From Bacteroidales bacterium (GTDB lineage Bacteria; Bacteroidota; Bacteroidia; Bacteroidales; UBA932): 64,000 nt of DNA. The stretch lies in assembly GCA_017455065.1 (NCBI GenBank), contig JAFTBU010000049.1, forward strand, positions 1-64,000, written 5' to 3'. The notes below the pieces were generated by a model, which made no database searches, was not told the DNA's origin, and worked only from the letters and a program-made list of their open reading frames with translations. Every line of letters starts with the position of its first letter. Positions within the stretch are counted from its first letter, which is position 1. Positions 6,053-47,403 of this stretch are shown here, one piece after another. The translations under genes were made by a program, and so were the position numbers.

Positions 6053-6955
6053 TTACCTGCAGTACGAAAGGATATCCGCCAAGACCTCCTGATGGTCGGT
6101 CTCGTTGTGGATTTCGTGGCGCAGGCCGGGATAGACTTTCAGCGACACATTTTGATATCCCCTGTCCTTCATGGCCCGGACGGCTTTGGCGAGAGCCTCG
6201 TCATCCACCCGGCAGGGATCCTCGGCCCCTGAGATGAAATGGACGGGGAGTTCGGTGTGGGAGGCTTTCCAATCCGTGGAATAGCAGTCTTTCATGAGGA
6301 GCAGAAGGTTCAGGAAACCGTCGGCTGTGAAAATATACTGGCACAAGGGGTCCGAGTGGTAGGCCTTGAGTATGTCAGGGTCGGAGCAGACCCAGCCTGC
6401 GGGCCAGCCCTCTTTTTCGAAGGGCTTGTTGTAGGCTCCGAAGGACATTTTCTGAAGTATCGCAGGACGGTGATGCCAGCCCTTGATGCAGCCGATGACC
6501 CTGGCGAGAAATATGCCGGCGCCCTTTGCCGGGTTGTCCGAAGGACAGCCGCAGACGATGAGGCTGTCTATCATGCTGTCATAGCGCTTGGCGTATGAAC
6601 GCACCGCCATGGACCCCATGCTGTGGCCGAAGAGGTTGAGCGGGACGCCGGGCCATTTGTCCCGGGCCCACAGAGTCACGGCCTTCAGGTCCTCCACCAG
6701 GCCCAGCCAGCCATCCTTCCCCATGAATCCGAGGTCTTCCTCCGATTTCACGGAAGCCCCGTGCCCCCTGTGGTCATTGCAGACCACCGCATATCCGTTA
6801 CTGCACAGGTACTCCATGAGTGGGATGTACCTTTCCTTGTGCTCGCACATGCCGTGCGATATCTGTACTATGCCTTTGGGCGAGCCCTCGGGCTCAGCGT
6901 AAATGAGGGAAAGGCGGAGTCCGTCGAACGGGGAGATGATGATGTCTGATTTCAT
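6053..6955 (-). CDS. Alpha/beta hydrolase, monoacylglycerol lipase-like
   Basis: 300 residues, cytoplasmic. Order of motifs: oxyanion region (VQISHGMCEHKERY), HRGHG, nucleophile elbow GHSMGS (Ser about 109), a cap region, a late acid loop (SGAEDPCR) and the catalytic His near the C-terminus (GLRHEIHNE). This is the serine hydrolase/lysophospholipase group (Hydrolase_4). Start chosen at ATG 6955 because it overlaps the stop of the upstream Na/Pi gene (ATGA, 4 bases), implying translational coupling. The natural ester is unknown. Confidence 0.85.
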   Translation of the reverse strand: MKSDIIISPFDGLRLSLIYAEPEGSPKGIVQISHGMCEHKERYIPLMEYLCSNGYAVVCNDHRGHGASVKSEEDLGFMGKDGWLGLVEDLKAVTLWARDKWPGVPLNLFGHSMGSMAVRSYAKRYDSMIDSLIVCGCPSDNPAKGAGIFLARVIGCIKGWHHRPAILQKMSFGAYNKPFEKEGWPAGWVCSDPDILKAYHSDPLCQYIFTADGFLNLLLLMKDCYSTDWKASHTELPVHFISGAEDPCRVDDEALAKAVRAMKDRGYQNVSLKVYPGLRHEIHNETDHQEVLADILSYCR

Positions 6956-8628
6956 GCGATATTGAGTGTCCTGATGGTTTTGGCAACGTTGATCATATGG
7001 TCTGCGATACGCTCGGCATTGGACGAAAGTTCCAGGTACTGTGCGCCTACGGTCGGAGTGCATATGCCCTTTTCCATGCGGGAGATATGTCCCTCTTCCA
7101 TCTTGCGGGTATATTCGTCGATTTCCTCCTCGACTGCGTTCGCCTGGTCCAGAGCCGCCAGGTCTTCATCTTGATAGGCCTTGACCATATAGTCGAAAAG
7201 GCGGTGGATCAGCATCTTGAGCTGGCTGATCTCATATTTGGCCTCGTCCGAGAACTGCTGCGACGAATCGGCCAGGGCCGTGGCGTATTCGACTATATTC
7301 TCGGCGTAGTCACCTATCCTTTCCAGATCGCGCACGCTCCTGTATGTACCGGAAAGATAGGCGCGGTCCTTTTCGCCGAGACCCCCTTCACCGCTCAGGC
7401 GGACTATGAATGCTATGAGCTCTTTGTTCAGGAAGTTCAGCTGGCGCTCATCGCGCTCGAAATCGGGCTTCCCGGAGAAGTCCAATTGGACAGCCATCCC
7501 GAAACTCCTGTCCATGTTCGCCAGGGCGATGTCGGCCATACGGAGGATTTCCCTCTTGACCTGTCCCACGGCCACGGGAGGGGTACGGAGCATGTTTTCA
7601 TTGACATAGTGCAATGTAAACTCCGGCTCTTCCTGCACCTGCCGCTCGGGGATCATCTTTTCCACGAGGGAAACCAGAGCCCCTGTCAGAGGGAGCATAA
7701 GCAGCACCGTCACCACATTGAAGAAGGTGTGGAACATGGCCAGCTGTATCTGCGGCGCCGAAGGGAACAAGGTCTCGAACAGGCCACCGAAGGAGATGCC
7801 GGCGAAGCCCAGGCACAGCGCGGCGAGCAAGAAGAGCACCACACCGGCGCAGTTGAACAGCAGATGGATGAGGGCCGTGCGCTTGGCATTGGTGCCGCTG
7901 GTGACACCGGCGATGATGGCCACGACGCAGGAGCCTATATTGGAACCCATGGTCAGGAAGATACCCTGGTCGATGCCGATGAGTCCCGTCACGACCATCG
8001 CAAGGGCGATGGAAGTCATCACGGAGGAACTCTGGATGATGGCGGTGAACAATGTTCCGATCAGCACGAGCAGCAGAGGGTTGCGTATGCCGGCGAGAAA
8101 GACTTTGACACCATCCAGCGCGGCGAATGATTCCATCGACCCGCTCATCAGCTCCAGACCCACGAAGAGGAGTCCGAAACCTGCCAGGATGCCTCCGAGG
8201 GTCTTGTAGCGGCTTCTCTTGGAGAAGAGGATGAGGAACGCTCCCAGTCCGGCGAAGGCTGAGAAAATGACACTGGTGGACACGGAATTGCCGCCGGACA
8301 TACCCAAGGCGACGATCTGGGCCGTCACCGTGGTACCGATGTTCGCGCCGTAAATGATGGTGGCTGCCTGTGCGAGGGAGATGATCCCGGCATTGACGAA
8401 ACCTATGGTCATGACCGTGGTCGCACCTGAGCTTTGGATGGCGGCAGTGCCCAGGGCACCGATACCTACACCCAGTAACTTGCTTCCCGAGGCTTTGGAA
8501 AAGAGTTTTTTCAGTTTCTCTGAGCTCGCAGCTTCCAGGTTGGAGCTCATCATCTTGCACGCTATGAGAAATACGCCGATTCCTGCGAGAAGAGTCAGCA
8601 GGGAGGTTATGACAGCTGTTAAATCCAT
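6952..8628 (-). CDS. Na/Pi cotransporter family protein with C-terminal PhoU-like domain
   Basis: 558 residues. The N-terminal two thirds contains two repeats of the Na/Pi cotransporter family, each with a Gln-Ser-Ser motif (AAIQSSGATT and AIIQSSSVMT). Residues from about 340 onward form a helical PhoU-like region. It is expected to use a Na gradient to move phosphate or a related anion at the inner membrane; in many bacteria this family's direction and substrate are uncertain. The frame is open far upstream, but family comparison and the position of the divergent promoter place the start at ATG 8628. It is co-transcribed with the downstream hydrolase. Confidence 0.85.
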   Translation of the reverse strand: MDLTAVITSLLTLLAGIGVFLIACKMMSSNLEAASSEKLKKLFSKASGSKLLGVGIGALGTAAIQSSGATTVMTIGFVNAGIISLAQAATIIYGANIGTTVTAQIVALGMSGGNSVSTSVIFSAFAGLGAFLILFSKRSRYKTLGGILAGFGLLFVGLELMSGSMESFAALDGVKVFLAGIRNPLLLVLIGTLFTAIIQSSSVMTSIALAMVVTGLIGIDQGIFLTMGSNIGSCVVAIIAGVTSGTNAKRTALIHLLFNCAGVVLFLLAALCLGFAGISFGGLFETLFPSAPQIQLAMFHTFFNVVTVLLMLPLTGALVSLVEKMIPERQVQEEPEFTLHYVNENMLRTPPVAVGQVKREILRMADIALANMDRSFGMAVQLDFSGKPDFERDERQLNFLNKELIAFIVRLSGEGGLGEKDRAYLSGTYRSVRDLERIGDYAENIVEYATALADSSQQFSDEAKYEISQLKMLIHRLFDYMVKAYQDEDLAALDQANAVEEEIDEYTRKMEEGHISRMEKGICTPTVGAQYLELSSNAERIADHMINVAKTIRTLNIA

Positions 8629-8636
8629 ACGGAGGA

Positions 8637-8644
8637 CGAATATA
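8637..8644 (-). promoter_or_regulatory. Weak promoter -7 candidate TATATTCG for the Na/Pi gene
   Basis: One mismatch to TAnnTTTG, 8 bases before the ATG at 8628. It faces the plus-strand promoter at 8668-8675. Confidence 0.35.
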
Positions 8645-11748: not shown

Positions 11749-12789
11749 TCACTGCATATCTCTGAGCCTGACATCCGTCCCGGGGAGCATCTCCGGGAGG
11801 GCGGACAGGTCCGTCCTGGAAAAATGATAAGGGATGAGCACCTTGGGGCTGATGAGCTTGGTGGCTTTCATGCACTGCTCCACGGTCATGGTATAGGGCT
11901 GGTTCACGGGAAGGAACGCCACGTCGATGTCCTTGAGCTCCGACATCTCAGGGATGTCTTCAGTATCCCCCGCTATGTAGATGCGGAGTCCGTCTGCGGT
12001 GAGGACGAAACCATTGTCCCTGCCCTTGGGATGGAACTGGGTATGGCCTTCGGTGTAGTTGTAGGCGGGTACTGCATCCAGCACGATGTCCCCGGGGAGG
12101 GTCAGGCGGTCGCCGTTGGCCATCGCCTTGCCGTAGCCGAGCATCGAGGCGCAGCGGGCGTTGGTGACCAGTTCGGTCCAGCCGTCCTCGGTCAGGGCTG
12201 CGATGGCGTCCTTGTCGAAATGGTCCCCGTGCTCATGGGTGACCAGGATGACGTCGGCCTTGGGGAACTCTTTCGCATAATCCGTAGCCTTGCCGTAGGC
12301 GCCGACAGGATCCACATGTAAGGTCAGTCCCTTGTAGCGGAGCGCCAGGGTGCCGTGCTTGATGAGGGCTATGGTCAACGGAGCGCCGCCGTCGGTGAAG
12401 AAGGTTTCCGCGGCATATGTGGTCACCGCTTTCCCGGCGGCCGTCCATGCCTCGATGCCGCCCTTCAGGTTGTACACGGTATATCCGGCCCCGGAAAGCT
12501 TTGCGGCAGCTTCGGAGCTGCGCCTTCCGGTGCGGCAATAGATCGCCAGCGCCGTCCCCTTGGGGTAGTCAGCCGCCACCTTGTCAATGAAATCTTCGGC
12601 ATACCAGTCGCAGTTGGACGCCCAGGGCAGGTGCCCCGCGGCATATTCTTCGGCAGTGCGGACATCCAGGGTGGCGACCTGGGCATCGGCGGACTTGGCC
12701 TCGAAGGCAGTCGGCTCGAGGTCGGTGAATGCTCCTGCAGAGCATGAAAGGAGAGTCATGAGAAATGAGAAGAGACAAATCGTTTTCAT
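11749..12789 (-). CDS. Rhodanese / metallo-beta-lactamase-fold fusion lipoprotein
   Basis: 346 residues. Signal peptide with lipobox (LLSC). Residues of about 25-125 form a rhodanese domain with its active-site Cys loop YCRTGRRSSE. Residues of about 135-345 form a metallo-beta-lactamase fold of the UlaG-like metal-dependent hydrolase group, with the HxHxDH motif (THEHGDH) and the later GDTED metal ligand. Rhodaneses move sulfane sulfur; this MBL group hydrolyses lactones, phosphodiesters and other substrates. The order rhodanese-MBL is the reverse of the common persulfide dioxygenase-rhodanese fusion. The frame extends 9 codons upstream, but ATG 12789 gives a proper signal peptide. The physiological substrate is unknown. 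Confidence 0.85.
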   Translation of the reverse strand: MKTICLFSFLMTLLSCSAGAFTDLEPTAFEAKSADAQVATLDVRTAEEYAAGHLPWASNCDWYAEDFIDKVAADYPKGTALAIYCRTGRRSSEAAAKLSGAGYTVYNLKGGIEAWTAAGKAVTTYAAETFFTDGGAPLTIALIKHGTLALRYKGLTLHVDPVGAYGKATDYAKEFPKADVILVTHEHGDHFDKDAIAALTEDGWTELVTNARCASMLGYGKAMANGDRLTLPGDIVLDAVPAYNYTEGHTQFHPKGRDNGFVLTADGLRIYIAGDTEDIPEMSELKDIDVAFLPVNQPYTMTVEQCMKATKLISPKVLIPYHFSRTDLSALPEMLPGTDVRLRDMQ

Positions 12790-12855
12790 AGCGGCAAGAT
12801 ACAAATTAATTGGCAATGTTGAGACTCCGCACGCTGCCAGTCGGCAGGACGCTGA

Positions 12856-14412
12856 TCAGAATGACAGCAGGGCGTCGTCATGATGGCGTGCCGCCCTGAA
12901 CTCGTCGTCCAGTATCATGGTGAAGCCGTTCTCTGAGCTGTAGGGCTCCCAGGCGGGTATGCCTTTGAGATTAGGGTCGCCTGTCTTGATGAAGGACAGC
13001 CAGATATCGCTCACCTTTTCCTGGAAGCGGTAGGCACGGTCCGAACCGCCTGTCATCTCACGCATGTTCTGCACATTGTTGAACATGAAAGGCAGTTCCA
13101 TGCCGTGGCTGGCCCCGAGGACGTTCTCCTCAGGCATCCAGGTGAAGAGGTAGAGATAGGCAGGGGCACCGCCCTGGGCGGCTTTTGCCGCAGCCTGCCT
13201 CACGGCGCCGCCGCGGAAATTGAGGTCGGCGTACACGGCGTGCTTCAGAGGGAAGCCGGGATAGGCTTCTGCGAAGAGCTTCAGGAATTCGTCGGTACGG
13301 GGACCGTAGCGACGCTGGAGAGCAGCCTTCACCGCGGCATCGGAGCCGTCGATTCCGATATTGAAAGTGAATTCATTGAAATTGGTACCTACCAGCAGAG
13401 GGATATCCTTCCCGAGCTCGGGAGCACCGGCATCCATTGGGCCCATGGCAATCACGGTGCCGTCCCCAACGGGGTTCGCACCTGCGCGGGACTTGCGGGA
13501 AGCGGCCAGCAGTTCATCATAGCTGAATCCGCTCAGGTCCACGTCCGGACCGGGCTTGAGACCGAGTGCCGCGACGAATTCCAGGCCCTGGGGACGGGTC
13601 TGAGCGGGATCGGAGAGCCTCAGGAAAGAACCGCTCTGCACCACCGCCTTATGGAAAAGGCCTTTTGCCGAAGGCATGGCGAGGAGGGCGGAGACTTTGC
13701 CGCCACCACCCGACTGTCCGCCGACTGTGACATTGGCGGGGTCACCGCCGAAGAGGGCGATATTGTCACGCACCCATTCCAAAGCTTTGACTATATCTTG
13801 CTGTCCCAGATTAACGGACTGGGCATACTTGCCTCCGAGTCCGCTCAGGTCCAGATAGCCGAGGACATTCAGACGGTGATTGATATTGACCACCACCACA
13901 TCTCCTTTCAGGGCGAGGGCACGGCCCTCATAACAAGGCAGGTCATGGCCGGAGCCGCTGGCATAGCCGCCGCCGTGTATCCAGACGAATACAGGGCGCT
14001 TCTTAGAGTCATTGATACCGGGGGTCCATACGTTCAGCACCTGGCAGGCTTCGTCCATAGGCTCCAGGTAGAACTGGTTGCCGAAGCCATAGTCGGACTG
14101 GGTGTTGCCGTCGTTGTAAAGCAAAGTCTCGGTCTGGGGGCACTGGGGACCGTACAATTTGCACTGTCTGATGCCTTCCCAGCGGTCGGGAGCCTGAGGA
14201 GGCATGAAGCGCTCAGCCTTGGCGTAGCGTATTCCCTTGAAGGTGTATATGGTGCCGTCGAGGTAACCTTCGACAGTACCGTAGATGGTGTTGACCCTGG
14301 TGTTTTCACCGGCGGAAACCGCTCCGTCGGGAAGATACTTCTGCACATGGCCGGAAGTGCAGGCACCTAGCATCAAAAAGGCCGGAATCAAGACAGAAAA
14401 AAACTTTTTCAT
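12856..14412 (-). CDS. Type-B carboxylesterase lipoprotein
   Basis: 518 residues, with an N-terminal lipobox (LGAC). It carries the carboxylesterase type-B fold: the oxyanion motif WIHGGGYASGSG, nucleophile elbow GGQSGGG with Ser234, acid Glu in GTNFNEFTF, and His in ASHGMELPF. Members hydrolyse carboxyl esters such as p-nitrobenzyl esters; in gut Bacteroidota many act on glycan or plant phenolic esters, but the substrate here is not predictable. It lies 66 bases upstream of the rhodanese/MBL gene on the same strand, so the two may be co-transcribed. Confidence 0.88.
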   Translation of the reverse strand: MKKFFSVLIPAFLMLGACTSGHVQKYLPDGAVSAGENTRVNTIYGTVEGYLDGTIYTFKGIRYAKAERFMPPQAPDRWEGIRQCKLYGPQCPQTETLLYNDGNTQSDYGFGNQFYLEPMDEACQVLNVWTPGINDSKKRPVFVWIHGGGYASGSGHDLPCYEGRALALKGDVVVVNINHRLNVLGYLDLSGLGGKYAQSVNLGQQDIVKALEWVRDNIALFGGDPANVTVGGQSGGGGKVSALLAMPSAKGLFHKAVVQSGSFLRLSDPAQTRPQGLEFVAALGLKPGPDVDLSGFSYDELLAASRKSRAGANPVGDGTVIAMGPMDAGAPELGKDIPLLVGTNFNEFTFNIGIDGSDAAVKAALQRRYGPRTDEFLKLFAEAYPGFPLKHAVYADLNFRGGAVRQAAAKAAQGGAPAYLYLFTWMPEENVLGASHGMELPFMFNNVQNMREMTGGSDRAYRFQEKVSDIWLSFIKTGDPNLKGIPAWEPYSSENGFTMILDDEFRAARHHDDALLSF

Positions 14413-14564
14413 ATAAATAAACTCTACAAAAACTCTATCGTGACACTACATCAGATGGATTAAAAAATAGCTATATTGCTTATAATCAAAAGTTTACCTA
14501 ATTATTAAATAAATTTATTACCTAAACAACGAAAAAAAGTAACCTCTACAATCAAAATAATGCC

Positions 14565-15264: not shown

Positions 15265-16848
15265 ATGCAGTATATCTTATACATATGTATAATATTGTGC
15301 CTGCTGGCCATCAGCGTAGCGATACTCGTATTCGAGTACCCCGCGCTGAGAGGTTTGATGAAAGCCTCCGGAGCTTCTGAGTTCCGATGCCTGCGCCCTT
15401 TGGCCGGCCTTGTGATGGCCGGGGCCGTAGTGCTGAGCGTACTCTTCGACAATCCGGTCAGCGACGCCGCTGCGGATGCTGCAGGTGACCTGCCCGCCTA
15501 CGGGTTCCTTGCCGTGGGTCTTTCCGTCATCCTGTCCTTTGCGGTCAGCAAGAACCTGAGTCCTTTCATGGCAGTCCCCTACGCTTTCATTTGCGCACTT
15601 TTGGGGTACCACACAGCCATCGACGGACGTTTCGATGTATGGCCTGCCGTCCGTTACGTTGTGTTATGGGTCGGCTTTTCATTCCTGTGCCTGTTCCTGG
15701 CGATGCTCTTTTACTGGCTGATCGCATTCGTAAGGAACAGATCCGGCCATCTGCTCAAGCAAGGCTACTACTACCGTTTCTTCTCTCTTATATTCAGTTT
15801 GTTCATGCTGGGGGCATACGCATGGAACAACTGTCTCATGGTCACCCTCTTCCCCGAGTACCTCTTCGGCAATACGATAGAAGCGGCAGGCATGGCGATA
15901 GGTGTCATAGCCATCACGGCCCCGTTCCTCCTGCGCAACATCAGTGTCAAGAGCTGGAGCATCTGCGATGACGTGATGGACATCAACAGCCCTTCCATCC
16001 TGGCTTCCATCCTGTCCGTAGGTGTCACTTTCGCTATCTCGCCTGTCCCCCTCTCCGCCGAATGCCTCATGGTCTCCGCCCTCTGCGGAATCAGCTATCT
16101 CAGGCACAAGGCCCTGATAGAAGGAGAGTTTGTCTGGAGAACCTTCGTAGCCACTGTCGTGTCATCCCTTTCTGGTTTCATCTCCGCGTACGCCATGGGG
16201 ATGATGCTCCGCGGCACAGTATTCAGCAGTGTGATGGCCATCATCATCATAGGCAGCATCACGGTCATGGTGATGTACATGACCAAACTCCGCAGAAAGG
16301 AGATCGAAAACAGGGTGCTCGCTGCCCGCCAGCGCCAGATGCACAGTACGGAGCAGTCTCTCTCCGCATTGGAAGTCCGGGCTGAGATGAACGAAATGGA
16401 GCTGCTCAACAAGCTCGAAGTCAAGCGCAAGGAGCTCGTGGATTTCGCAGTGGGAGTCAGCGACCAGAAGGAATTCATGGAGAAGGTCTATGACGGTCTC
16501 CAGGAAGTCCGCGATGCCCCTGACGGCGCCCCCAAGAACAAACAGCTGGACCAGCTGCTCTCCTCCATCAGGCAGAGGATGTATTTCACCCGGGAGATGA
16601 ACGATTTCTACGCCCGGAGTGAGGTGCTCCACAGCGATTTCAACAGCCGCCTGAGCGAAGCCTATCCCGACCTCACCGAGGGCGAGCGCAAACTCGCCGT
16701 CCTGCTCAGGCAGGGCTTCACCAGCAAATACATAGCGACGCTCATGAACATCACTCCCAAGAGCGTCGAGATCAGCCGCTACCGCCTCCGCCTCAAACTG
16801 GGCCTCGGCCGCAGCGACAACCTCGTGAAATTCATCAAATCCATCTAA
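15265..16848 (+). CDS. PiT-like membrane domain fused to LuxR-type HTH: probable membrane-bound regulator
   Basis: 527 residues. Residues 1-335 hold about ten hydrophobic segments arranged as two halves that follow the layout of inorganic phosphate transporter (PiT/PHO4) proteins. The PiT signatures are lost: the first and second GANDxxN positions read VFEYPALRG and AYAWNNCLM, and the two PVSTTH positions read SPFMAVP and PVPLSAE. Residues of about 339-410 are a charged coiled coil. Residues of about 469-527 are a LuxR/GerE-type helix-turn-helix (LTEGERKLAVLLRQG, TSKYIATLMNITPKSVE). I infer a non-transporting sensor that regulates transcription from the membrane, with DUF47 as its partner. 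The PiT link rests on pattern reading by eye; the HTH is clear. Confidence 0.7.
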   Translation: MQYILYICIILCLLAISVAILVFEYPALRGLMKASGASEFRCLRPLAGLVMAGAVVLSVLFDNPVSDAAADAAGDLPAYGFLAVGLSVILSFAVSKNLSPFMAVPYAFICALLGYHTAIDGRFDVWPAVRYVVLWVGFSFLCLFLAMLFYWLIAFVRNRSGHLLKQGYYYRFFSLIFSLFMLGAYAWNNCLMVTLFPEYLFGNTIEAAGMAIGVIAITAPFLLRNISVKSWSICDDVMDINSPSILASILSVGVTFAISPVPLSAECLMVSALCGISYLRHKALIEGEFVWRTFVATVVSSLSGFISAYAMGMMLRGTVFSSVMAIIIIGSITVMVMYMTKLRRKEIENRVLAARQRQMHSTEQSLSALEVRAEMNEMELLNKLEVKRKELVDFAVGVSDQKEFMEKVYDGLQEVRDAPDGAPKNKQLDQLLSSIRQRMYFTREMNDFYARSEVLHSDFNSRLSEAYPDLTEGERKLAVLLRQGFTSKYIATLMNITPKSVEISRYRLRLKLGLGRSDNLVKFIKSI

Positions 16849-18262: not shown

Positions 18263-19087
18263 ATGAAAAAGATATTCTTCATAGCAGCAGCCGCACTCCT
18301 CGCTCTTACAGGATGCGTAAAGGACGAAATCTTCAAAGGCCCTTCAGCCATTGAAAAGGTAGCATTCTCGCCCAAGGCTCCCACCTCCAAGGATGCAGTC
18401 ACCGTAACGGCGACCATCACCGGACTCCAGGCCGTCACCAAAGCCACCCTCAACTACAACGGTACCACCGTGGACATGACAGGTTCCGGCACAAGCTTCA
18501 GCGCGACCATCCCCGCCCTCGCTGACGGCACCGATGTCAGTTTCACCGTGACCGCTGTCAATGATGCCGGCTTCACCACCACTTCCGACAAGTACACCTA
18601 CAAGGTAGGCGACCCCGCCCCCGATTGGTCCAAGCTCAAATTGAACGAGGTCTACGGCGCCGGCGCTGACAACGAGAAATTCTTCGAGCTCTACAACGGC
18701 AGCGACTTCCCCATCAAACTTACCGGTGTGAACATCAGCAAGGATGAGGAGAACTGCTGGACCGGCATCGACGGAGAAGTGGTCCCCGCCCACGGATTCT
18801 TCGCAATCATCGGTGCAAAGGGCACCACTCCCAGAGGCTTCAGCAGCGGTTTCTCCGCCAAGAAGAGCGTCATCGTAGAAATCTTCGCCCCGGACGGCAC
18901 CAAGCTCGACACCTTCCAGCGCGGTGACAAGGACGACCAGGGCAAATGGGGTACTTCCATCACCAACTACAGCGGTTCCTGGAGCCGTGTACCCGACGGC
19001 ACCGGCAAATGGATGCGCACCGACACCTTCACTCCCGGCGTTGCCAACAGCACCTCCGCCACTGAAGATGACTATGTCAAAAATTAA
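18263..19087 (+). CDS. Lamin-tail-domain lipoprotein
   Basis: 274 residues. Lipobox LTGC (Cys 18). Residues of about 30-115 look like an Ig-like domain and residues of about 125-270 like a lamin tail domain: LKLNEVYGAGADNEKFFEL followed by the LTGVNISKD strand and a late PDGTGKW segment. Such domains in bacteria are found on secreted nucleases and phosphatases and probably hold proteins at the cell surface or on a ligand. No catalytic domain is present. Together with the porin upstream it may form an outer membrane uptake unit. Confidence 0.78.
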   Translation: MKKIFFIAAAALLALTGCVKDEIFKGPSAIEKVAFSPKAPTSKDAVTVTATITGLQAVTKATLNYNGTTVDMTGSGTSFSATIPALADGTDVSFTVTAVNDAGFTTTSDKYTYKVGDPAPDWSKLKLNEVYGAGADNEKFFELYNGSDFPIKLTGVNISKDEENCWTGIDGEVVPAHGFFAIIGAKGTTPRGFSSGFSAKKSVIVEIFAPDGTKLDTFQRGDKDDQGKWGTSITNYSGSWSRVPDGTGKWMRTDTFTPGVANSTSATEDDYVKN

Positions 19088-19106: not shown

Positions 19107-19745
19107 ATGGCAGAACTTAAAATCGGCGAGCAGAGCAAGCCGCGCTTCGAATTCCGCAGCTTCGGCCAGTGCTTCTGCGAGCAGCACAAGAGGATGGCCC
19201 GTCTCTCAGTCCCCGTACCCGAGAAAGTATGGGAGCGTAGCAGCGACGAGATCTACATCATTTCCGCAAAGAACGACATCAACAACACCAAGATCCGCGA
19301 CGGCAAGATGGACATAAAGACTTATGTCCAGACTGTCGACGGTCTCGAGCAGTGGAACCCTCTCATGAAGGGCGAATTCCCCATCTCCCGCGAGGTCCTC
19401 GAAAAAGAGGTCTTCCCCGCTTTCATGGTGGAGATGCCCAAACTTGACAAGGACACTTATACCTTCGATGAATTCATCGCCATGGTCAAGGCCAATCCCG
19501 ACCTGGCGGCGGTGCGCGTGCACAAGCAGCGCTTCGGATACATGGTCAACAACACCATCTGCGAGGTCGGAAACGTCCTCATCAACGGAGCCAAGGTGGT
19601 GACCATCAATTCCGAGTCCACAGAGATCGAAGACATCAAGAAGACCATCGCAGACTGCGGCCTCGAAGGAGTGGAGAACATCAACTACCTCCAGGCCATA
19701 AAGCGTGTGATCGGCATGAGCGACAAACCCTTAGCAAACGAATAA
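19107..19745 (+). CDS. Probable divergent CYTH-like protein
   Basis: 212 residues, cytoplasmic. I do not recognise it firmly. The arrangement of charged strands (FEFRSFGQ near residue 15, KMDIKTYVQT near 70, VRVHKQRFGYMV near 135, then INSESTEIEDI) parallels the triphosphate-tunnel (CYTH) fold, and it sits 3 bases upstream of an unmistakable CYTH gene. The metal-binding ExExK of the N-terminus is not conserved (FEFR), so a catalytic role is uncertain. It may be a binding or regulatory partner of the next gene product. Confidence 0.5.
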   Translation: MAELKIGEQSKPRFEFRSFGQCFCEQHKRMARLSVPVPEKVWERSSDEIYIISAKNDINNTKIRDGKMDIKTYVQTVDGLEQWNPLMKGEFPISREVLEKEVFPAFMVEMPKLDKDTYTFDEFIAMVKANPDLAAVRVHKQRFGYMVNNTICEVGNVLINGAKVVTINSESTEIEDIKKTIADCGLEGVENINYLQAIKRVIGMSDKPLANE

Positions 19746-21869: not shown

Positions 21870-22484
21870 ATGTCTTGGGAATTCATACTTCGGCTCGTGA
21901 TAGCCGGTCTGCTCGGTGCGGGCATAGGACTGGAACGTGAGATACGCGCCAAAGAGGCCGGTATCAGGACCCACTTCATCGTGGCCCTGGGCAGCGCCTT
22001 GTTCATGCTCATCTCGCAATTTGCCTTCGACGGCCGCTTCGATGCCGCGAGGGTCGCCGCACAGGTGGTCTCGGGCATCGGTTTCATCGGCGCCGGCGTC
22101 ATCATTTTCCAGAAGAATGTAGTCCGCGGCATCACCACTGCTGCGGGCCTCTGGGTCGCGGCCGGCATAGGCCTGGCCTGCGGGGCAGGGATGTTCGACA
22201 TTGCCATCGCCGCAGCCCTCCTCACCATCATGTGCCTGGAGACCATGCATTTCATCACCAAGCGCTACGGTGAAAGGACAGTGCTGATGGTCATCCACGA
22301 CATCAAGGCCGATGAATTCAAACCCATCATAGCCAAGATCGAGAAATGCCGCGTGGAAGTCCTCAACTACGGAATCAGCGAGAGCGTCGCGCAGATCGAG
22401 ATGCGCATACGCCATCGCTACTATTCCGAGACTTTCCAGGAACTCATCGCCATCACCAAAGGCTACGACGTGGATATCGAATGA
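21870..22484 (+). CDS. MgtC/SapB family membrane protein
   Basis: 204 residues. The N-terminal MgtC domain has the family motif GLLGAGIGLEREIRAKEAGIRTH and AAQVVSGIGFIGAGVI, with four to five membrane segments up to about residue 125. The C-terminal 75 residues form a small ACT-like soluble domain. In pathogens MgtC inhibits F1Fo ATPase and influences phosphate uptake and Mg homeostasis; the role in gut commensals is unknown. Placement in a phosphate-themed run fits the reported MgtC-phosphate link. Confidence 0.85.
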   Translation: MSWEFILRLVIAGLLGAGIGLEREIRAKEAGIRTHFIVALGSALFMLISQFAFDGRFDAARVAAQVVSGIGFIGAGVIIFQKNVVRGITTAAGLWVAAGIGLACGAGMFDIAIAAALLTIMCLETMHFITKRYGERTVLMVIHDIKADEFKPIIAKIEKCRVEVLNYGISESVAQIEMRIRHRYYSETFQELIAITKGYDVDIE

Positions 22485-39499: not shown

Positions 39500-40915
39500 A
39501 TGTACAACCCTTCATCAGTCCACGCGGACGATTTCATAGACCACGGGGAGATACTCGAGACACTTGACGAGGCGGCACGGGAAAGCCGCAACCCCGTCAG
39601 GGTCGGGCAGATCCTCGAGAAAGCCCGTTTATACAAAGGCCTGAGCCACAGGGAGGCAGCCATACTCATGGACTGCGACGACCCCGACCTCGAAGAGCGC
39701 ATCTACGCCCTGGCCAGAGAGATCAAACACAGGTTCTACGGCAACAGGATAGTCCTTTTCGCTCCCCTGTACCTTTCCAACTACTGCATCAACGGATGCG
39801 TGTACTGCCCCTACCATGCCAAGAACCGCACCATCCCCCGCAAGAAACTCTCCCAGGAAGAGATAGAGCAGGAAGTGAGGGCCCTCATCCGCATGGGGCA
39901 CAAACGTCTCGCCGTCGAATCCGGAGAAGACCCCAGGAACAATCCCCTGGAGTACATCCTGGACTCCATCCATACCATCTACTCCGTAAATGAAGGAGGC
40001 AACTCCATACGCCGCGTAAATGTGAACATAGCCGCGACGGACGTGGAATCCTACCGCAAGCTCAAGGCCGCCGGGATAGGCACCTACATTCTTTTCCAGG
40101 AGACCTACAATAAAGAACAATACCGCCAGCTCCATCCCACCGGTCCCAAGAGCGACTACGACTGGCACACCGAGGCCATGGACCGCGCACAGGAAGGCGG
40201 CTGCGACGACGTCGGCATAGGAGTCCTGTTCGGTCTGAGCAACTACCGCTACGAACTCGCCGGCCTGCTCATGCACGTAGAGCATCTGGAGGCCAGGTTC
40301 GGAGTCGGTCCCCATACCATCAGCGTCCCCCGTATCTGCCCCGCCGACGACATCTCGGTGGACGATTTCCAGGACGCCCTCCCCGACCACATCTTCCGCA
40401 AGCTGGTCGCCGTACTCAGAGTGGCCGTCCCCTACACGGGCATGATAGTCTCCACCAGGGAATCCGCCCGCATGCGCAAACTGCTGCTGGATTGCGGAGT
40501 GTCACAGATCAGCGGAGGGTCGCGCACCAGCGTCGGAGGCTACACCACCGAGGAAAGGCACAACGAGACCTCGCAGTTCGACGTCTCGGACACCCGTTCC
40601 CTGGAGGAAGTGGTGGAATGGCTGCTCGACCAGAACCATATCCCGAGTTTCTGCACAGCCTGCTACCGCGAAGGCCGCACCGGAGACCGTTTCATGAGTC
40701 TCTGCAAGAGCGGGAACATCAGCCTCTGCTGCACCCCCAACGCCTTGATGACCTTGAAGGAATACCTGATGGACTACGCTTCCCCGCAGACCCGGGAGAA
40801 AGGCGAGCGCCTGATCGCCAGGAGTCTCTCGGACATCCCCCGCGAACAGACACGCCGCATCACCCAGGAGCGTCTGGAAGCTATAGAGCACGGAGCAAGG
40901 GATTTCCGTTTCTAG
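39500..40915 (+). CDS. hydG: [FeFe] hydrogenase H-cluster maturase HydG
   Basis: 471 residues, the family length. The radical SAM motif is CINGCVYC (Cys96, Cys100, Cys103), a CxxxCxxC of tyrosine-lyase type. The C-terminal cluster-binding motif is present (CTACYREGRTGDRFMSLC). HydG cleaves tyrosine to make CO and cyanide and delivers an Fe(CO)2(CN) unit for the H-cluster. It is followed by hydF after one base. The catalytic subunit and hydE lie on the opposite strand within 10 kb. Confidence 0.96.
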   Translation: MYNPSSVHADDFIDHGEILETLDEAARESRNPVRVGQILEKARLYKGLSHREAAILMDCDDPDLEERIYALAREIKHRFYGNRIVLFAPLYLSNYCINGCVYCPYHAKNRTIPRKKLSQEEIEQEVRALIRMGHKRLAVESGEDPRNNPLEYILDSIHTIYSVNEGGNSIRRVNVNIAATDVESYRKLKAAGIGTYILFQETYNKEQYRQLHPTGPKSDYDWHTEAMDRAQEGGCDDVGIGVLFGLSNYRYELAGLLMHVEHLEARFGVGPHTISVPRICPADDISVDDFQDALPDHIFRKLVAVLRVAVPYTGMIVSTRESARMRKLLLDCGVSQISGGSRTSVGGYTTEERHNETSQFDVSDTRSLEEVVEWLLDQNHIPSFCTACYREGRTGDRFMSLCKSGNISLCCTPNALMTLKEYLMDYASPQTREKGERLIARSLSDIPREQTRRITQERLEAIEHGARDFRF

Positions 40916-40916
40916 G

Positions 40917-41999
40917 ATGGAAAGGCTGCACATCGCATTTTTCGGTCCCACTAACAGTGGCAAGTCCACCCTGGTCAACGCAATCTGCGGCCAGGAAGTA
41001 TCTCTGGTGAGCGAAGTTCCCGGCACGACGACGGACCCTGTCCGCAAAACCGTGGAATTGCCGGAGCTGGGCCCCTGCGTACTCATCGACACCGCGGGGC
41101 TGGACGACACGGGCATCCTGGGCAGCGAACGCGAGCGGCGCAGCCGCGCCATCATCGACGAAACCGATATCGCAGTCATATTGGACACCCCCGACGCTCC
41201 GGCCCCCTCGGAGGCTGTCAGCGGCCTTATGTCAATGCTGGAAGCGGCGGGAGTCCCCAGCCTGGTCCACCGCAGGGGAGATTCCGTCCCCTCATTGCTT
41301 CAGCGTCTGGCGGCAGCAGCGCCCCGGGAGGAGGAACGCTTCCTCACGGGAGGGCTGGTGCATGAGGGCAACAGCGTCCTGCTGGTCATGCCGCAGGATT
41401 CCGAAGCCCCCAAGGGCCGGCTGATCCTGCCGCAGGTACAGGTGCTGAGGGAGCTGCTGGACCGTGGCTGCGTGCCGCACAGCTGCACTCCCGATTCCCT
41501 GAAGGACGCCCTGCAAAGCCTTTCCCGCCTGCCGGACCTGGTCATCACGGATTCGCAGGTCTTCGGCCTGGTGGAACGGAGCATCCCGAAGGAGTGCCCG
41601 CTCACCTCATTCTCAGTGCTGCTGGCCGCCGCCAAAGGAGACATCCGGCTCTTCGTGGAAGGGGCCGGGGCCATAAATACGCTGAAACCCGGCGACCGCG
41701 TACTTATCGCCGAGGCTTGCACCCATGTGCCGGATACGGAAGACATAGGCCGAGTGAAGATACCAGCGCTGCTGCGAAGGAAAGCCGGAGACATCAACGT
41801 GGAAATCGCAGCCGGGAACGATTTCCCGGAGGACCTGTCGCCCTACGCATTGATCATCCACTGCGGAGCCTGCGTCGCCAACGCCCGCCTGGTGCGCTCT
41901 CGCCTGAGGAAAGCACGCCTCGCCGGCGTACCCATCACAAATTACGGGATAGCGATCGCCGCGCTGCAGGGCATACTTCCACGGATATCCCTGCCATAG
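40917..41999 (+). CDS. hydF: [FeFe] hydrogenase H-cluster maturation GTPase HydF
   Basis: 360 residues. N-terminal GTPase domain with P-loop GPTNSGKS (10-17), switch motif PGTTTDP and DTAGLDD. A dimerisation domain follows, then the C-terminal iron-sulfur domain with EACTHVPD (CxH) and HCGACVAN (HCGxC), the ligands of the HydF 4Fe-4S cluster. HydF is the scaffold on which the 2Fe subcluster is assembled and handed to HydA. It ends 6 bases before the convergent hydE. Confidence 0.95.
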   Translation: MERLHIAFFGPTNSGKSTLVNAICGQEVSLVSEVPGTTTDPVRKTVELPELGPCVLIDTAGLDDTGILGSERERRSRAIIDETDIAVILDTPDAPAPSEAVSGLMSMLEAAGVPSLVHRRGDSVPSLLQRLAAAAPREEERFLTGGLVHEGNSVLLVMPQDSEAPKGRLILPQVQVLRELLDRGCVPHSCTPDSLKDALQSLSRLPDLVITDSQVFGLVERSIPKECPLTSFSVLLAAAKGDIRLFVEGAGAINTLKPGDRVLIAEACTHVPDTEDIGRVKIPALLRRKAGDINVEIAAGNDFPEDLSPYALIIHCGACVANARLVRSRLRKARLAGVPITNYGIAIAALQGILPRISLP

Positions 42000-42005
42000 C
42001 GGCAG

Positions 42006-43091
42006 TCAGCGGGTCTTTTTCGTAAAGGCAAGGGAATCTCCCCACTCATTGTAGAGAATCTGGTGGCCTATCGCTGCCAGACGGATGTCCAGGCAGGATT
42101 TGCACTGGTCGGGCCTGTCTTTGACACAGGCCTTGTCGGGATATATGAAATAACTCTCCCTGTATTCTCCGGGCGTGAGGTTGGGCATTATGACATTGGC
42201 CCCGGCTGCTATGGCCTTCTCCCTCCCCTGGGGATCGACAGTCTGGTTGGCGGTGGCCGCCACCATATTGATTTCGGGCATCATAAGCCGCAGGACGGCG
42301 ATCATCTTGAGCGTCATGTCCATGCGTGCATCTGCAGGAGGGACCTGGTCCCTGAAACGGTAAAGCGGGGTATCGGGATGCGGGATGTAGGGACCGAGAC
42401 CTACCATCGCCACATCCATGCGCTTGAAGAACAACAGGTCATCTGCCAGCTGGTCCAGGGTCTGGAAAGGCAGGCCCACCATCACCCCGGTGCCGGTTTG
42501 GTAACCAATGCTTTTCAGCATCTCCAGGCATTCCACCCGCTTCCTGAAACTGTGCTTGTCATTCTTGGGGTGGATCTTGTAATAGAGTTCTTCGGAAGAT
42601 GACTCGATACGCAGCAGGTAGCGGTGCGCGCCGGCTTCAAACCAAGAGCGGTAGGTCTCTTCGCTCTGTTCACCCAGGGACAGGGTGATGCCGAGGCTGC
42701 CTCCGTCTATCTTTTTGATCTCCCGCACCAGCTGCGCGATATGGTCGACGAAAGCGGGGTCGCTGCGTTCTCCGCTCTGCAGGGCGACGGAGCCATAGCC
42801 CAGCTCATGGGCCAGACGGGCGCAGGAGAGCACATCTTCGTCGCTGAGGAGGTAGCGCTCCACCTTGCCGTTCCCGCTGCGCAAGCCGCAGTACAGGCAA
42901 TTCTTCTCGCACACATTCCCGTATTCGATGAGCCCGCGCAAGTGGACATAATTGTCCAGATACCGGAACTTGACCTCCCTGGCACGACGCAGGAGTTCCT
43001 TCATCCGGGGGCCTTCAGCCGCCAGGAGGACCTTGATCTCTTCCTTGCCGAAATCCTGGGCGAGGAGTATGTCTTCGAAGCTGCGGTCCAT
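42006..43091 (-). CDS. hydE: [FeFe] hydrogenase H-cluster maturase HydE
   Basis: 361 residues, radical SAM. The cluster motif is CEKNCLYC (Cys61, Cys65, Cys68). The VALQSGERSDP strand and the ESSSEELYYKIHP segment are HydE features, and a C-terminal Cys pair (CKSC) may hold an accessory cluster. It supplies part of the dithiomethylamine-bridged 2Fe precursor. It is the last gene of the hydrogenase operon, separated by 2 bases from the ATPase gene upstream. Confidence 0.95.
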   Translation of the reverse strand: MDRSFEDILLAQDFGKEEIKVLLAAEGPRMKELLRRAREVKFRYLDNYVHLRGLIEYGNVCEKNCLYCGLRSGNGKVERYLLSDEDVLSCARLAHELGYGSVALQSGERSDPAFVDHIAQLVREIKKIDGGSLGITLSLGEQSEETYRSWFEAGAHRYLLRIESSSEELYYKIHPKNDKHSFRKRVECLEMLKSIGYQTGTGVMVGLPFQTLDQLADDLLFFKRMDVAMVGLGPYIPHPDTPLYRFRDQVPPADARMDMTLKMIAVLRLMMPEINMVAATANQTVDPQGREKAIAAGANVIMPNLTPGEYRESYFIYPDKACVKDRPDQCKSCLDIRLAAIGHQILYNEWGDSLAFTKKTR

Positions 43092-43093
43092 GG

Positions 43094-43627
43094 TCAGCTG
43101 CCTATATTTTCGTGAATGAGTTCTGTCAGGCTGCGTATGATCTCATAGTCGTTGAGATTCATGCCTTCGAATACTTCCTTGACTTCGGAGGTGCTCAGCT
43201 CGAAAGTCCCTTCGTCCGTGATGTAGCGTATGGTGAACTCTATGTCCTGGTACTGGCAGATGAAATTGGCGAAGCAGCCTGAAAGGTCGCCCTTGGGCTG
43301 CAGGTCGATGTGCGAACGCTGATACGAGGCATAGATCTCAGTACCCTCCCCCACCTTGGATTTGAGGTAGAAGCGGCCGTTGCAGATCTGCGAATGGAAT
43401 TTCAGCAGGGCTATGCCCATGCCTATCTTGCGCTCTTTGCGGCAGGAGTAGAAATGGTCGTTTATCGCGTCGATCATGTCCTGGGGCATGCCGCAGCCGT
43501 TGTCTATGATCTTGATAGAGAGCAGGTCACGCGCTGCGCTGTCCTCCATCTCTATGGTGATACGGGTGGCTCCGGCACGGATGGAGTTGTGGGTGATGTC
43601 TATTATGTGCAGGTCGAGGCTTTTCAT
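43094..43627 (-). CDS. Histidine-kinase-type ATPase domain protein of the hydrogenase operon
   Basis: 177 residues. GHKL ATPase motifs: DITHNSIRAGA (N box), KIIDNGCGMP (G1) and RKIGMGIALLK (G2). There is no dimerisation or His-phosphorylation domain. The C-terminal 60 residues form an extra small domain. Homologues occur in [FeFe] hydrogenase clusters of Clostridia and Thermotogae without a tested role. It may serve as an anti-sigma-like kinase or partner of the PHP or hydrogenase-like proteins next to it. Confidence 0.8.
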   Translation of the reverse strand: MKSLDLHIIDITHNSIRAGATRITIEMEDSAARDLLSIKIIDNGCGMPQDMIDAINDHFYSCRKERKIGMGIALLKFHSQICNGRFYLKSKVGEGTEIYASYQRSHIDLQPKGDLSGCFANFICQYQDIEFTIRYITDEGTFELSTSEVKEVFEGMNLNDYEIIRSLTELIHENIGS

Positions 43628-43628
43628 T

Positions 43629-44363
43629 CTATAGTATCACTGGCTCTCCGGGACGGAGGGCGTACTTGAAATTCTCGAAACTGAAAGACGGCATCTCCAG
43701 GACGCTGAAGACCTTGGCGATGTCGTCTATGTAATGGGCGTCGCTGCTCTGGATGAAGTTGAAATCGCTGAACCACGGGCAGTCCTCGAGGAACTTGTAG
43801 CCGTCGCGGCGGCAGCGGGAGCTGAGCTCCAGGGCGTGGAACTTGAGTTTGTCCGGGACCATGCCGAGTTGGGAGGAGATGCTGAAACTGCTGCGGTCCA
43901 CATGGGCAGGGATGAATATCCCGCCCATTTCATAGACTTTGCGCTGGAGTTCCAGCATGGGTAGGTCCAGGGCGTTTATCAGCAGATGGGGCACCTGGTC
44001 CAGGACGTTCTCCTCTTCGTCCACCACCAGTTGGTAGCCGAAACGGTCCACGTCGTTTTCAAACCATATCACCCTCGAATCCAGGAACTTCTGGAACTCG
44101 GCAAGCTTTTCGGAACTGGGCATGAAGGCCAGGCAGTGCACTTCCTCACGGGTGGTGACTTCCGCACCCATGAGCACATGAAGGCCGGCCTGCTCGCCAA
44201 GTCTTCTGGTGACTTCTGCATTAAGGGTGGAGTTGTGGTCGGTGATGCCTATGATATCCAGGCCCCTCTCCTTAGCTTTGGCTACGATAGCCGAGGGGCT
44301 CATCTCGAGGTCCCCGCAGGGAGACAGCACCGAGTGGATGTGCATATCGGCCTTGAACTGCAT
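43629..44363 (-). CDS. PHP domain phosphoesterase of the hydrogenase operon
   Basis: 244 residues of the PHP fold with its four metal motifs visible: DMHIHSVLSPCG (HxH), ITDHNS, a mid-chain HVDRSS and a late QSSDAHYID. PHP proteins hydrolyse phosphate esters or nucleotides with a trinuclear metal centre. This short form with a C-terminal PHP-associated segment is found in hydrogenase clusters; the substrate is unknown. It begins 6 bases after the upstream DRTGG gene and ends 1 base before the ATPase gene. Confidence 0.85.
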   Translation of the reverse strand: MQFKADMHIHSVLSPCGDLEMSPSAIVAKAKERGLDIIGITDHNSTLNAEVTRRLGEQAGLHVLMGAEVTTREEVHCLAFMPSSEKLAEFQKFLDSRVIWFENDVDRFGYQLVVDEEENVLDQVPHLLINALDLPMLELQRKVYEMGGIFIPAHVDRSSFSISSQLGMVPDKLKFHALELSSRCRRDGYKFLEDCPWFSDFNFIQSSDAHYIDDIAKVFSVLEMPSFSFENFKYALRPGEPVIL

Positions 44364-44369
44364 CCAGGC

Positions 44370-44699
44370 TTATTTGAGAAGTTCGTAGAGCTTTCCGCAG
44401 ACCTGGAATGTGGCATCGTGGCTCACCAGGATGCATATATCCTCTTCCTTGGCGTGCTCCAGCATATCCTCGTCGGGCACTCCGTCGCGGACCAGTATCA
44501 CCGCAGGGATGTCCTTGAGGGAAGCGATGGCTGTCACGTTCTTGTGGGTCTGCATGGTGACCCAGACCTGGCCGCTGCGGGCATTGCCCATCACGTCGCT
44601 CAGCAGGTCGGAAGCGTAGGCTCCGCTGACTTCTGCGTCGAGATTGGCTTCGTTCAGGCACTTCAGGTCCAGTTTTTCAATGATTTCCTTGACTGTCAT
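44370..44699 (-). CDS. DRTGG domain protein (copy 2)
   Basis: 109 residues forming a single DRTGG-type domain, a Rossmann-like module otherwise known from CBS-containing pyrophosphatases and phosphotransacetylases. Features: EVSGAYASDLLSDVMGNA, VWVTMQTHKN and the AVILVRDGVPDEDM strand. It resembles the gene at 46482-46826 in length and motif order. It probably binds a small ligand or protein and acts with the hydrogenase-like subunit encoded just upstream. Confidence 0.8.
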   Translation of the reverse strand: MTVKEIIEKLDLKCLNEANLDAEVSGAYASDLLSDVMGNARSGQVWVTMQTHKNVTAIASLKDIPAVILVRDGVPDEDMLEHAKEEDICILVSHDATFQVCGKLYELLK

Positions 44700-44700
44700 A

Positions 44701-46062
44701 TCAATGATCCGTTTTTTCGTCCTTATGTATTTCCTTGGTCCGCACCTTCTCTCCCCAGATGTCCCGGATGGCGCTCTCTGAGGCCCGGGAATTGCGGTTG
44801 ATGAAGATGCAGGTGTCTATCCTGGCGTCGCCGCGCACGATGTCTTCGGCCAGGGCGGCGCAGGAGGGCGCACCGCAGGCGGAGCAGTTCACTCCGGGCA
44901 GGGCGCTTTCTATCTTTTTCATGCGCTCGGCCATCTTGAAGGCCTCGGCATAATTGTCATCGAGCTTGTAAATGGAACGGGGCTTGATCTCCGGAATCTC
45001 CATCTGGTCCTCTATCATGGCGGTGAATTCGGGATCGTAGCTGCGCATGCCGGGGCTCCTGGGGCGCTGCAGACGGTCGAATATCCTGGCCCTGTTCTCC
45101 AGCCGCTTGCGGGCGACGAAGCGGTTGTTCACGGCGAGGACGCCTCCCACGCAGCCCTGGTCGCAGATACGCATCTCCACGAGACCGCGGGCATCGATAG
45201 CGTCATCTTCGAGTTTTTCCAGGAAATCCAATACGTTCTGCAGGCCGTCCACCGCATAGTGCTCACCCTTGAAGAGGGCGGCCTCACCTCCTGAGAGGGG
45301 CCAGAGCACGCCGCGGGAGGTCAGGGCGTGGTTGACCGGCTCGGTATCCCTGCTCCGCTCATGGAGCATGAGGCGGACTTTGTTGTAGAGGAAATCCATG
45401 TTGATGACACCCGAGATGCAGGTCTCCTTGCCGCTTACAGGATATTTGACTGCGGCTATCTTGGCCGCACAGGGAGTCACGTAAAACACCCCTATGGACT
45501 CACGGCTGGCCCCTTTGTCCATCAGGCGCTTTATGATGACCCGGGAAGCTAGTTCCAGCGGGGAACGGAGCCGTATCAGATTGCCCACCAGCGAGGGGAA
45601 CCTCACCTGAATGAGCCGGGTGATGGCGGGACAGTAAGGTGAGATGAAAGTCCCGATCTCAGGGTGGCGTTCCATGTACTGGGTATACAGGTCGGCCATG
45701 TACTCCACTTCATGCTCCACCTCGTAGATGTGGGTGAAACCGAGTTTCTTCAGGCAGGAATAGATGGCCCTGGTCCTGTATCTGTCATCGAACTGGCCTA
45801 TGAAGGTGGCCGGGACGAGACATACCCGATACTCGTAATCCTCTATCATGGCGAAATCGTCCTGCTGGATGTAGATCGCCTTGTGAGGGCATATCTTCAT
45901 GCACTCCCCGCAGTCGACGCATTTGTTGTCGTTTATCACAGCCTTGCCGTCCCGGATGCGGATGGCGCCCGTAGGGCATACCCGCATACAGGCCGTACAA
46001 CTCTGGCAGAGCTGCCCGTCGACCTTGAGTGAATGTCTGAAATATGTTTCCCTTTTCGTCAT
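44701..46062 (-). CDS. Hydrogenase-like iron-sulfur protein (HydS/HfsB-type sensory or accessory subunit)
   Basis: 453 residues. Two N-terminal 4Fe-4S motifs (CQSCTACMRVCP and CVDCGECMKICP), then an [FeFe] hydrogenase large-subunit domain, then a C-terminal iron-sulfur domain (CSACGAPSC). In the hydrogenase domain the four Cys that hold the H-cluster cubane appear kept: L1 ISPYCPAI (Cys144), L2 TPCAAK, L3 RICDQGCVGG. The proton-relay Cys just before Cys144 is Tyr143, and the L3 tail GGGQP is absent. This suggests a slow or sensory enzyme, as in group C/D hydrogenases, not the main catalyst. It has no PAS domain. Confidence 0.85.
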   Translation of the reverse strand: MTKRETYFRHSLKVDGQLCQSCTACMRVCPTGAIRIRDGKAVINDNKCVDCGECMKICPHKAIYIQQDDFAMIEDYEYRVCLVPATFIGQFDDRYRTRAIYSCLKKLGFTHIYEVEHEVEYMADLYTQYMERHPEIGTFISPYCPAITRLIQVRFPSLVGNLIRLRSPLELASRVIIKRLMDKGASRESIGVFYVTPCAAKIAAVKYPVSGKETCISGVINMDFLYNKVRLMLHERSRDTEPVNHALTSRGVLWPLSGGEAALFKGEHYAVDGLQNVLDFLEKLEDDAIDARGLVEMRICDQGCVGGVLAVNNRFVARKRLENRARIFDRLQRPRSPGMRSYDPEFTAMIEDQMEIPEIKPRSIYKLDDNYAEAFKMAERMKKIESALPGVNCSACGAPSCAALAEDIVRGDARIDTCIFINRNSRASESAIRDIWGEKVRTKEIHKDEKTDH

Positions 46063-46065
46063 TTG

Positions 46066-46479: not shown

Positions 46480-46481
46480 GG

Positions 46482-46826: not shown

Positions 46827-46860
46827 TTCAGTTCAGGATGGAAACATCGGAAAAACACCA

Positions 46861-47396: not shown

Positions 47397-47403
47397 GGTT
47401 CAA

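Follow-up and report, generated by a model that had tools for sequence, protein, structure and literature searches.

The window (the whole stretch of 64,000 nucleotides that was analysed) carries an operon in which one gene joins a PiT-derived membrane domain, a coiled coil and a LuxR-type helix-turn-helix (HTH) in a single chain (Table 1). The fusion ORF begins 9 bases past the DUF47 ORF, a position that the initial annotation had given and that the ORF coordinates bear out. The same annotation had placed a coiled coil and a LuxR/GerE HTH after the membrane part; both were recovered, with GerE scoring above the Pfam cut-off over residues 470–516, an HTH fold also present, and helices spanning residues 320–417 and 422–466 in the AF2 model. 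Among the Pfam matches of the fusion protein up to an E-value of 1 there was no receiver domain of the NarL/FixJ type, and structure prediction gave the N terminus as a PiT fold rather than a receiver domain.

Table 1. Features of the operon and of the region upstream of it.
Feature	Position	Strand	Basis or size
Three CTCTACA-type heptamers, direct repeat with 11-base period	14422..14450	+	predicted LuxR-domain site
Fourth, single CTCTACA unit	14544..14550	+	sequence
DUF47 protein (probably PitR-type), 220 aa	14593..15255	+	PF01865; family alignment A3
Fusion protein: PiT-derived membrane domain, coiled coil and LuxR HTH in one chain	15265..16848	+	527 aa
Residues 1–319: PiT-fold membrane domain, substrate motifs degenerate	15265..16221	+	
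Residues 320–466: last membrane helix running into long coiled coil	16222..16662	+	AF2 model
Residues 470–527: LuxR/GerE HTH	16672..16845	+	
Porin_O_P (phosphate-selective porin family), 455 aa	16869..18236	+	PF07396, 145.1 bits
Lipoprotein with lamin-tail domain, 274 aa, operon gene four	18263..19087	+	PF00932, 35.3 bits
212-aa protein, predicted triphosphate-tunnel (TTM) fold	19107..19745	+	structure prediction
CYTH-domain protein, 158 aa	19749..20225	+	PF01928, 56 bits
DASS-family sodium-coupled anion symporter, 535 aa	20247..21854	+	PF00939, 179.1 bits
MgtC-family membrane protein, possible last gene	21870..22484	+	PF02308, 129.8 bits

Assignment of the membrane part to the PiT family drew on profiles and on structure. 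In the Pfam search, the window protein on its own gave no match to PHO4 (PF01384), and residues 1–335 gave no Pfam match of any kind. A PiT profile signal was obtained through orthologs: PHO4 exceeded its cut-off of 33.7 in ortholog G028 (44 bits, with neighbours in frame), and 8 of the 13 members of alignment A1 had no PHO4 match at E-values up to 1. Structure prediction matched the membrane domain to the PiT fold. The PiT identity proposed at the outset was thus upheld, by the signal via orthologs together with the structure match, but a direct PHO4 match of the window protein was not obtained. Elsewhere in the window's genome there was no PHO4 match at E-values up to 0.001. The window protein is a degenerate PiT domain followed by a coiled coil and a LuxR domain, encoded beside DUF47, and so combines a transporter-derived membrane domain with an output domain in one chain, as transceptors and one-component membrane regulators do.

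The order of genes in the operon is conserved among relatives. The DUF47 protein scored 23.7 bits against PF01865 (cut-off 24.4), with residues 20–216 aligned to positions 14–213 of the 214-position profile. The porin is gene three of the cassette in relatives as well, and 88 of the 113 related loci have a homolog of the lamin-tail lipoprotein, a total that includes places fetched twice (e.g. L133 and L139). The 212-aa protein matched no Pfam or NCBIfam family and gave no CYTH match up to an E-value of 1, and hhalign against the neighbouring CYTH family returned a Prob of 0.2; it is 76–92% identical to 12 of 13 aligned homologs and 27% identical to the remaining one, from a locus with an unfused PiT gene. 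The CYTH-domain protein next to it matched PDB entries 3typ (E 2.8e-23) and 2fbl (E 9.7e-23), and the DASS symporter scored 200.4 against TIGR00785 (cut-off 198.6). An MgtC gene follows DASS in three loci of the same genus and is absent from those loci of other genera that extend beyond DASS.

Other genes of the window and its genome were noted in passing. A Na+/Pi cotransporter with C-terminal PhoU domains lies at 6952–8640 (−), about 6 kb from the cassette, and the genome has a second Na/Pi cotransporter gene on another contig (G000:C26). A search for PstA returned matches below the cut-off only, and absence of Pst is likely. A protein encoded at 11749–12816 (−) unites rhodanese and metallo-beta-lactamase-type domains. 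By eye, the ORF at 51495–53072 (+) joins HD-hydrolase-like, GAF-type and MsrA-like parts, its HD-like stretch closely resembling an independent ORF that immediately precedes the cassette in L006 and L078, and the region from about 39500 to 50986 holds HydG-, HydF- and HydE-like genes with subunits of an electron-bifurcating [FeFe] hydrogenase.

Residues of the GAND and PVSTTH motifs take part in substrate handling by PiT transporters. Most of the substrate motifs have been lost in the window's clade, and the window protein has neither a GANDxxN nor a PVSTTH-type motif: most of motif 1 is gone, and the first STSQ motif has lost its two serines. The first serine of the first PVSTTH-like motif, an alanine in the window protein, is kept in 7 of 30 rows of the clade. 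The hhalign alignment places the acidic residue of motif 1 at E24, a position that is acidic in 28 of the 30 rows (D in 20, E in 8, with one S and one gap); the first Asn of motif 2 falls on N188 (30/30 rows), and P262 corresponds to the Pro of the last motif (26/30). The MAFFT alignment A4 places N188 three positions off, and L245, whose motif-2 region is similar to that of the window protein, aligns there as in hhalign. Wide conservation is thus limited to the acidic position and to a single Asn and a single Pro. The initial annotation had all four signature sites changed; the sites are indeed degenerate, but the positions of E24, N188 and P262 are kept, so not every residue is lost and, as aligned, the substrate sites are not blank.

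To place the fusion among its relatives, loci with a DUF47 gene of this type were compared. When 393 genomes of the order, taken to be Bacteroidales, were searched starting from DUF47, 45 gave a match. The 100 fetched loci, which are loci at hand rather than an even survey, comprised 58 degenerate fusions, 21 intact fusions, 15 PiT genes without LuxR, 3 DUF47–LuxR fusions and 3 uncalled loci; these states were set by score thresholds of local profiles (intact, PiT profile over 100 bits), the degenerate count includes L246, an intact-type fusion with a frame break, the unfused count includes L264 and L283, which end at contig edges and are possibly fusions, and L013 and L110 are one locus. The porin lies inside the fetched stretch in 57 of the 58 degenerate, 17 of the 21 intact, 2 of the 3 DUF47–LuxR and 1 of the 15 unfused loci. 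Every fusion of the family has DUF47 alongside unless a contig end intervenes.

The intact fusions represent 15 family codes of the order plus one of another order (G851). A class-level search of 396 genomes, some of them of the same order, with the best three candidates of each genome scored and rows taken up to an E-value of 1e-40, found at least one full-length fusion outside the order (that of G851), and others may have been missed; G824, which shares the family code of G851, matched the PiT part only. A profile of alignment A4, in which 17 of the 19 rows are intact fusions, matched the TmPiT structure 6L85 with an E-value of 1.6e-33. In these 17 rows, motif 1 retains its D in 16, one of its two Asn in 15 and the other in 17, and the first S and the Q of STSQ, GANN and P-x-SS are present in all 17. 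The first motif is changed in three intact fusions (L257, L261 and L262).

At the other end of the range, the membrane part is shortened in L012, L013 and L104, and in L098–L100 PiT is absent and DUF47 is fused directly to the coiled coil and LuxR domain. Hydropathy indicates two membrane helices between DUF47 and the coiled coil–LuxR part in L098 and L099; L100 holds the DUF47 end only, the gene being cut by a contig boundary. Two fusion genes are interrupted: L122 (2808–4430, genome G179) has an in-frame TAG between the membrane part and the coiled coil and is the only full-length row with an internal stop in the genus survey of fusion genes, and L246 (1990–3807, genome G372) has its frame break within the PiT part. 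Genome G026 has two full-length copies of the fusion gene (C39 and C37). In L244 (3075–4616 (−), genome G055), DUF47 is followed by a 513-aa protein with a matching LuxR end and then by the porin; the membrane part of that protein gave no match to the PiT or the degenerate profile at E-values up to 0.001. The series of unfused, fused intact and fused degenerate forms, and of forms in which the membrane domain is lost, offers a stepwise case of a transporter becoming a regulator.

A DUF47 tree was used to order these states. It was a quick tree (SH-aLRT support only, long branches, midpoint root; L111, L277 and L281 left out), in which 56 degenerate fusions and the three DUF47–LuxR rows formed one clade (SH-aLRT 98), nested in a clade of 75 rows (98) together with 14 intact fusions, L246 and L283. 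The intact fusion L256 joins that larger clade next (96), and L244, classed as degenerate, is a very long branch outside it. Degeneration in the window's family is therefore most likely secondary, to judge from the tree, with the window fusion a decayed descendant of an intact one. Because six intact fusions (L260, L263, L267, L268, L272 and L284) sit among unfused loci, the tree is compatible with more than one count of fusion gains and losses.

Substitution rates were compared between the two parts of the protein. In 13 pairs from the degenerate clade, dN/dS was 0.10–0.26 for the membrane part (where dS exceeded 1 in 7 of the 13) and 0.01–0.17 for the coiled coil–LuxR part, the membrane part being the faster in 12 pairs and L126/L127 the exception. 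Two intact pairs had identities of 0.77 vs 0.75 and 0.77 vs 0.62 (membrane vs LuxR part), so in these the conservation of the membrane part equals or exceeds that of the LuxR part. Both parts are under purifying selection; the membrane part is relaxed, not free.

The region upstream of DUF47 contains a candidate target for the LuxR domain. The three heptamers read CTCTACA, CTCTATC and CACTACA, with aaaa and gtga between them, and lie 9 bases ahead of the start of a divergent esterase gene (12856–14412). Near the fourth unit, at about 14565, is TATATTTA, which we take to be a Bacteroidetes-like −7 element. Within the window the tandem pattern matched twice, the two matches overlapping, where 0.04 matches were expected. 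When one mismatch was allowed, it gave two overlapping matches in the whole of the window's genome, at this place only; the reversed control gave three matches, and it is therefore the place of the site, not the number, that counts.

Across the genus, CTCTACAA was found upstream of DUF47 in 46 of 53 distinct regions, the highest 8-mer count in shuffles being 9. An exact, longer tandem, a pattern that the window's own site does not fit, occurred at 24 sites in 24 of 300 genus genomes, once in each, and its reversed control nowhere. All 24 genomes fall within the 64 of 300 with a complete or partial cassette, as counted with the best four candidates per genome scored (hypergeometric p 1.4e-18, kinship ignored). 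By coordinates, 22 of the 24 sites lie just upstream of the cassette. The 23rd is on another contig, some 190 bases ahead of DUF47; the 24th lies 129 bases from a contig end, and DUF47 of the same genome starts 89 bases into a different contig.

The units are oriented and follow the fusion. Here, and in the 8-mer count above, duplicate regions were removed by comparing the final 60 or 80 bases, except in the unit count for intact fusions alone and in the comparison of recognition helices below. Strict single units were present in 30/30, 13/17 and 2/7 regions of three groups of the window's clade, the last group being the distinct regions of truncated and DUF47–LuxR loci, and in 0/13 unfused regions; among intact fusions they were present in 13 of 20 regions, and a strict tandem in 1 of 20. 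Forward and reverse units numbered 177 and 25 for degenerate fusions (53 regions, shuffle mean 19.0), 50 and 7 for a set restricted to intact fusions (20 regions out of 21; shuffles averaged 13.6 and reached at most 27) and 2 and 8 for unfused loci (13 regions, shuffle mean 3.7). The recognition helix also varied together with the unit: loci with H506 had 14 ACTTNACA units in 7 loci (shuffle 0.23), against 4 in 62 loci with Y506 (shuffle 2.15), in a comparison that is mostly of one clade, in which one locus, without the variant unit, is counted twice (L013 and L110), the helix of L106 was read at the wrong place and those of L263 and L265 were unreadable. The oriented CTCTACA repeats upstream of the operon are likely to be the regulator's target, and the simplest reading of the pattern is that the LuxR domain binds them and controls its own operon.

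Direct repeats with an 11-base period are more typical of OmpR/PhoB-type than of LuxR-type regulators. Because the repeat resembles such sites, it might instead be bound by a different, e.g. PhoB-like, regulator, and the LuxR fusion would then act elsewhere. We consider this improbable, since the 24 exact tandem sites in the 300 genus genomes are spread one per genome over cassette carriers, the one-mismatch tandem of the window's genome lies at this place only, units are not enriched ahead of unfused PiT cassettes, and a variant unit accompanies the change in the LuxR recognition helix. Decay of the fusion into a gene without function is a near-negligible prospect. The degenerate substrate motifs, the in-frame stop in one ortholog (G179/L122) and the frame break in one intact-type fusion (L246) would fit it, but no full-length genus row other than that of G179 has an internal stop, dN/dS is well below 1 in both parts (in 7 of the 13 pairs the dS of the membrane part exceeds 1), and the operon and repeats are conserved.

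Were the window protein still to transport phosphate or another anion, with the LuxR part as a regulatory add-on, this would fit the lack of another PHO4 match in the genome, the motif set kept in intact fusions and the residual acidic and Asn positions. It is nevertheless very unlikely, given that the window protein lacks the two serines of the first STSQ motif and retains little of motif 1, the first serine is kept in only 7 of 30 clade rows, the domain has been deleted in related lineages, and two Na/Pi cotransporter genes and the operon's DASS symporter could cover anion uptake. A less remote chance, still well short of even, goes to the domain being a mere anchor or docking platform in the window's clade, with DUF47 sensing phosphate and LuxR as the output. 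The three loci in which PiT is missing and DUF47 is joined directly to membrane helices, coiled coil and LuxR argue for such an anchor, as do the faster evolution of the membrane domain in 12 of 13 pairs and the presence of DUF47 beside every family fusion not ended by a contig edge. Against it, the domain is still under purifying selection, and the conservation of an acidic position 24 (28/30) and of N188 (30/30) goes beyond the needs of an anchor. Conserved E24 and N188 favour a ligand-binding domain, and loss of the domain in related lineages favours docking of DUF47 at the membrane; its absence from L098–L100 and its shortening in L012, L013 and L104 are points against the PiT domain as the sensor.

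Weighing these points, we think it rather probable that the window protein is a membrane-bound one-component transcription regulator of PiT descent, with DUF47 as input and its own operon as target through the CTCTACA repeats. The initial annotation had proposed a phosphate sensor that reads anion state through the former transporter and DUF47, and this is partly supported. The locus is best read as encoding a one-component regulator within a phosphate-themed operon, but sensing of anions by the former transporter is putative, and dispensable in a related lineage where DUF47 is fused straight to LuxR. In the mechanism that we propose, DUF47 would bind the cytoplasmic face of the PiT-derived domain and relay phosphate or flux state, and the coiled coil would alter the dimer state of the LuxR domains. 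These would bind the CTCTACA repeats upstream of DUF47 and thereby set transcription of the regulator's own operon, comprising DUF47, the regulator, the phosphate-type porin, the lipoprotein, the two triphosphate-tunnel proteins and the DASS anion symporter. We equate PitR with DUF47, a name absent from PMC13170248. The PitR/PitA precedent, together with an output domain that belongs to the PiT chain here and to DUF47 in three loci, leads us to prefer a model in which DUF47 carries the phosphate signal and acts on the PiT-derived domain, the coiled coil and LuxR domain being the output; the real input may then be DUF47 rather than the former transporter. Where the motifs are kept, the protein may combine phosphate transport with regulation; in the lineage of the window, transport is probably gone and the domain would serve as a receptor or scaffold. 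There is perhaps a slightly less than even chance that the intact PiT–LuxR protein is a single-chain transporter and transcription factor, gated by DUF47 and controlling a phosphate/triphosphate operon through CTCTACA repeats, with the window protein as a receptor stage and DUF47–LuxR as the end stage. A PiT–LuxR protein of this kind may let a gut bacterium read phosphate and control genes via one molecule, and since transporter domain, DUF47 and DNA-binding output are held in two adjacent genes with one predicted site, the path is testable in a reporter strain.

The fusions share the common fold, the two-half layout and the adjacent DUF47 gene of PiT transporters (PF01384; TmPiT 6L85), and the intact ones also share the substrate motifs, most of which the window's clade has lost; PiT transporters, for their part, are without the C-terminal coiled coil and LuxR domain. 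The latter end is homologous to that of large Bacteroidetes coiled-coil LuxR regulators, many of about 850–1000 aa. Matches to these are confined to the coiled coil–LuxR end, the PiT part having no match to their long N-terminal part, and such regulators are the likely donor of that end, as far as homology indicates. CadC and ToxR have an N-terminal winged helix and a simple membrane helix, whereas in the fusion the LuxR domain is C-terminal. With TcpP, they are likewise membrane proteins with a cytoplasmic DNA-binding domain (PMC10269533), but the membrane part of the fusion is a transporter fold of many helices.

Two further systems link a transporter to gene control. CbrA, an SLC5 transporter joined to a histidine kinase, is a known transporter-sensor fusion (PMC13022988); it and other SLC5-STAC histidine kinases are transceptors, which couple transport and signalling domains in one protein (PMC13022988; PMC7096432). 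CbrA is a kinase with a separate response regulator, whereas here the transporter-derived chain, of the PiT family, itself bears the DNA-binding domain. In Staphylococcus aureus, PitR with PitA represses PhoPR and controls phosphate signalling, and PitA is present in 97.8% of PitR genomes (PMC13170248). The output of the PitR/PhoU regulators of PhoPR, among which PitR, paired with PitA, likewise links transporter and gene control, is a separate two-component system; here the output domain is part of the transporter-like chain itself or, in three loci, of the DUF47 chain. The discussion of that 2026 survey leaves unsettled the mechanism by which PhoU/PitR relay the phosphate state of a transporter to gene expression (PMC13170248). 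Among the literature matches listed, from a search that was thin on subscription journals, there was no description of a PiT–LuxR fusion. This agrees with the initial annotation, which knew of no described example; the fusion is not singular, however, since PiT–LuxR proteins with kept motifs occur in 15 family codes. Transporter-sensor fusions and membrane-bound one-component regulators are both already known; what appears to be new here is the direct PiT-to-DNA layout, found in many families of one order.
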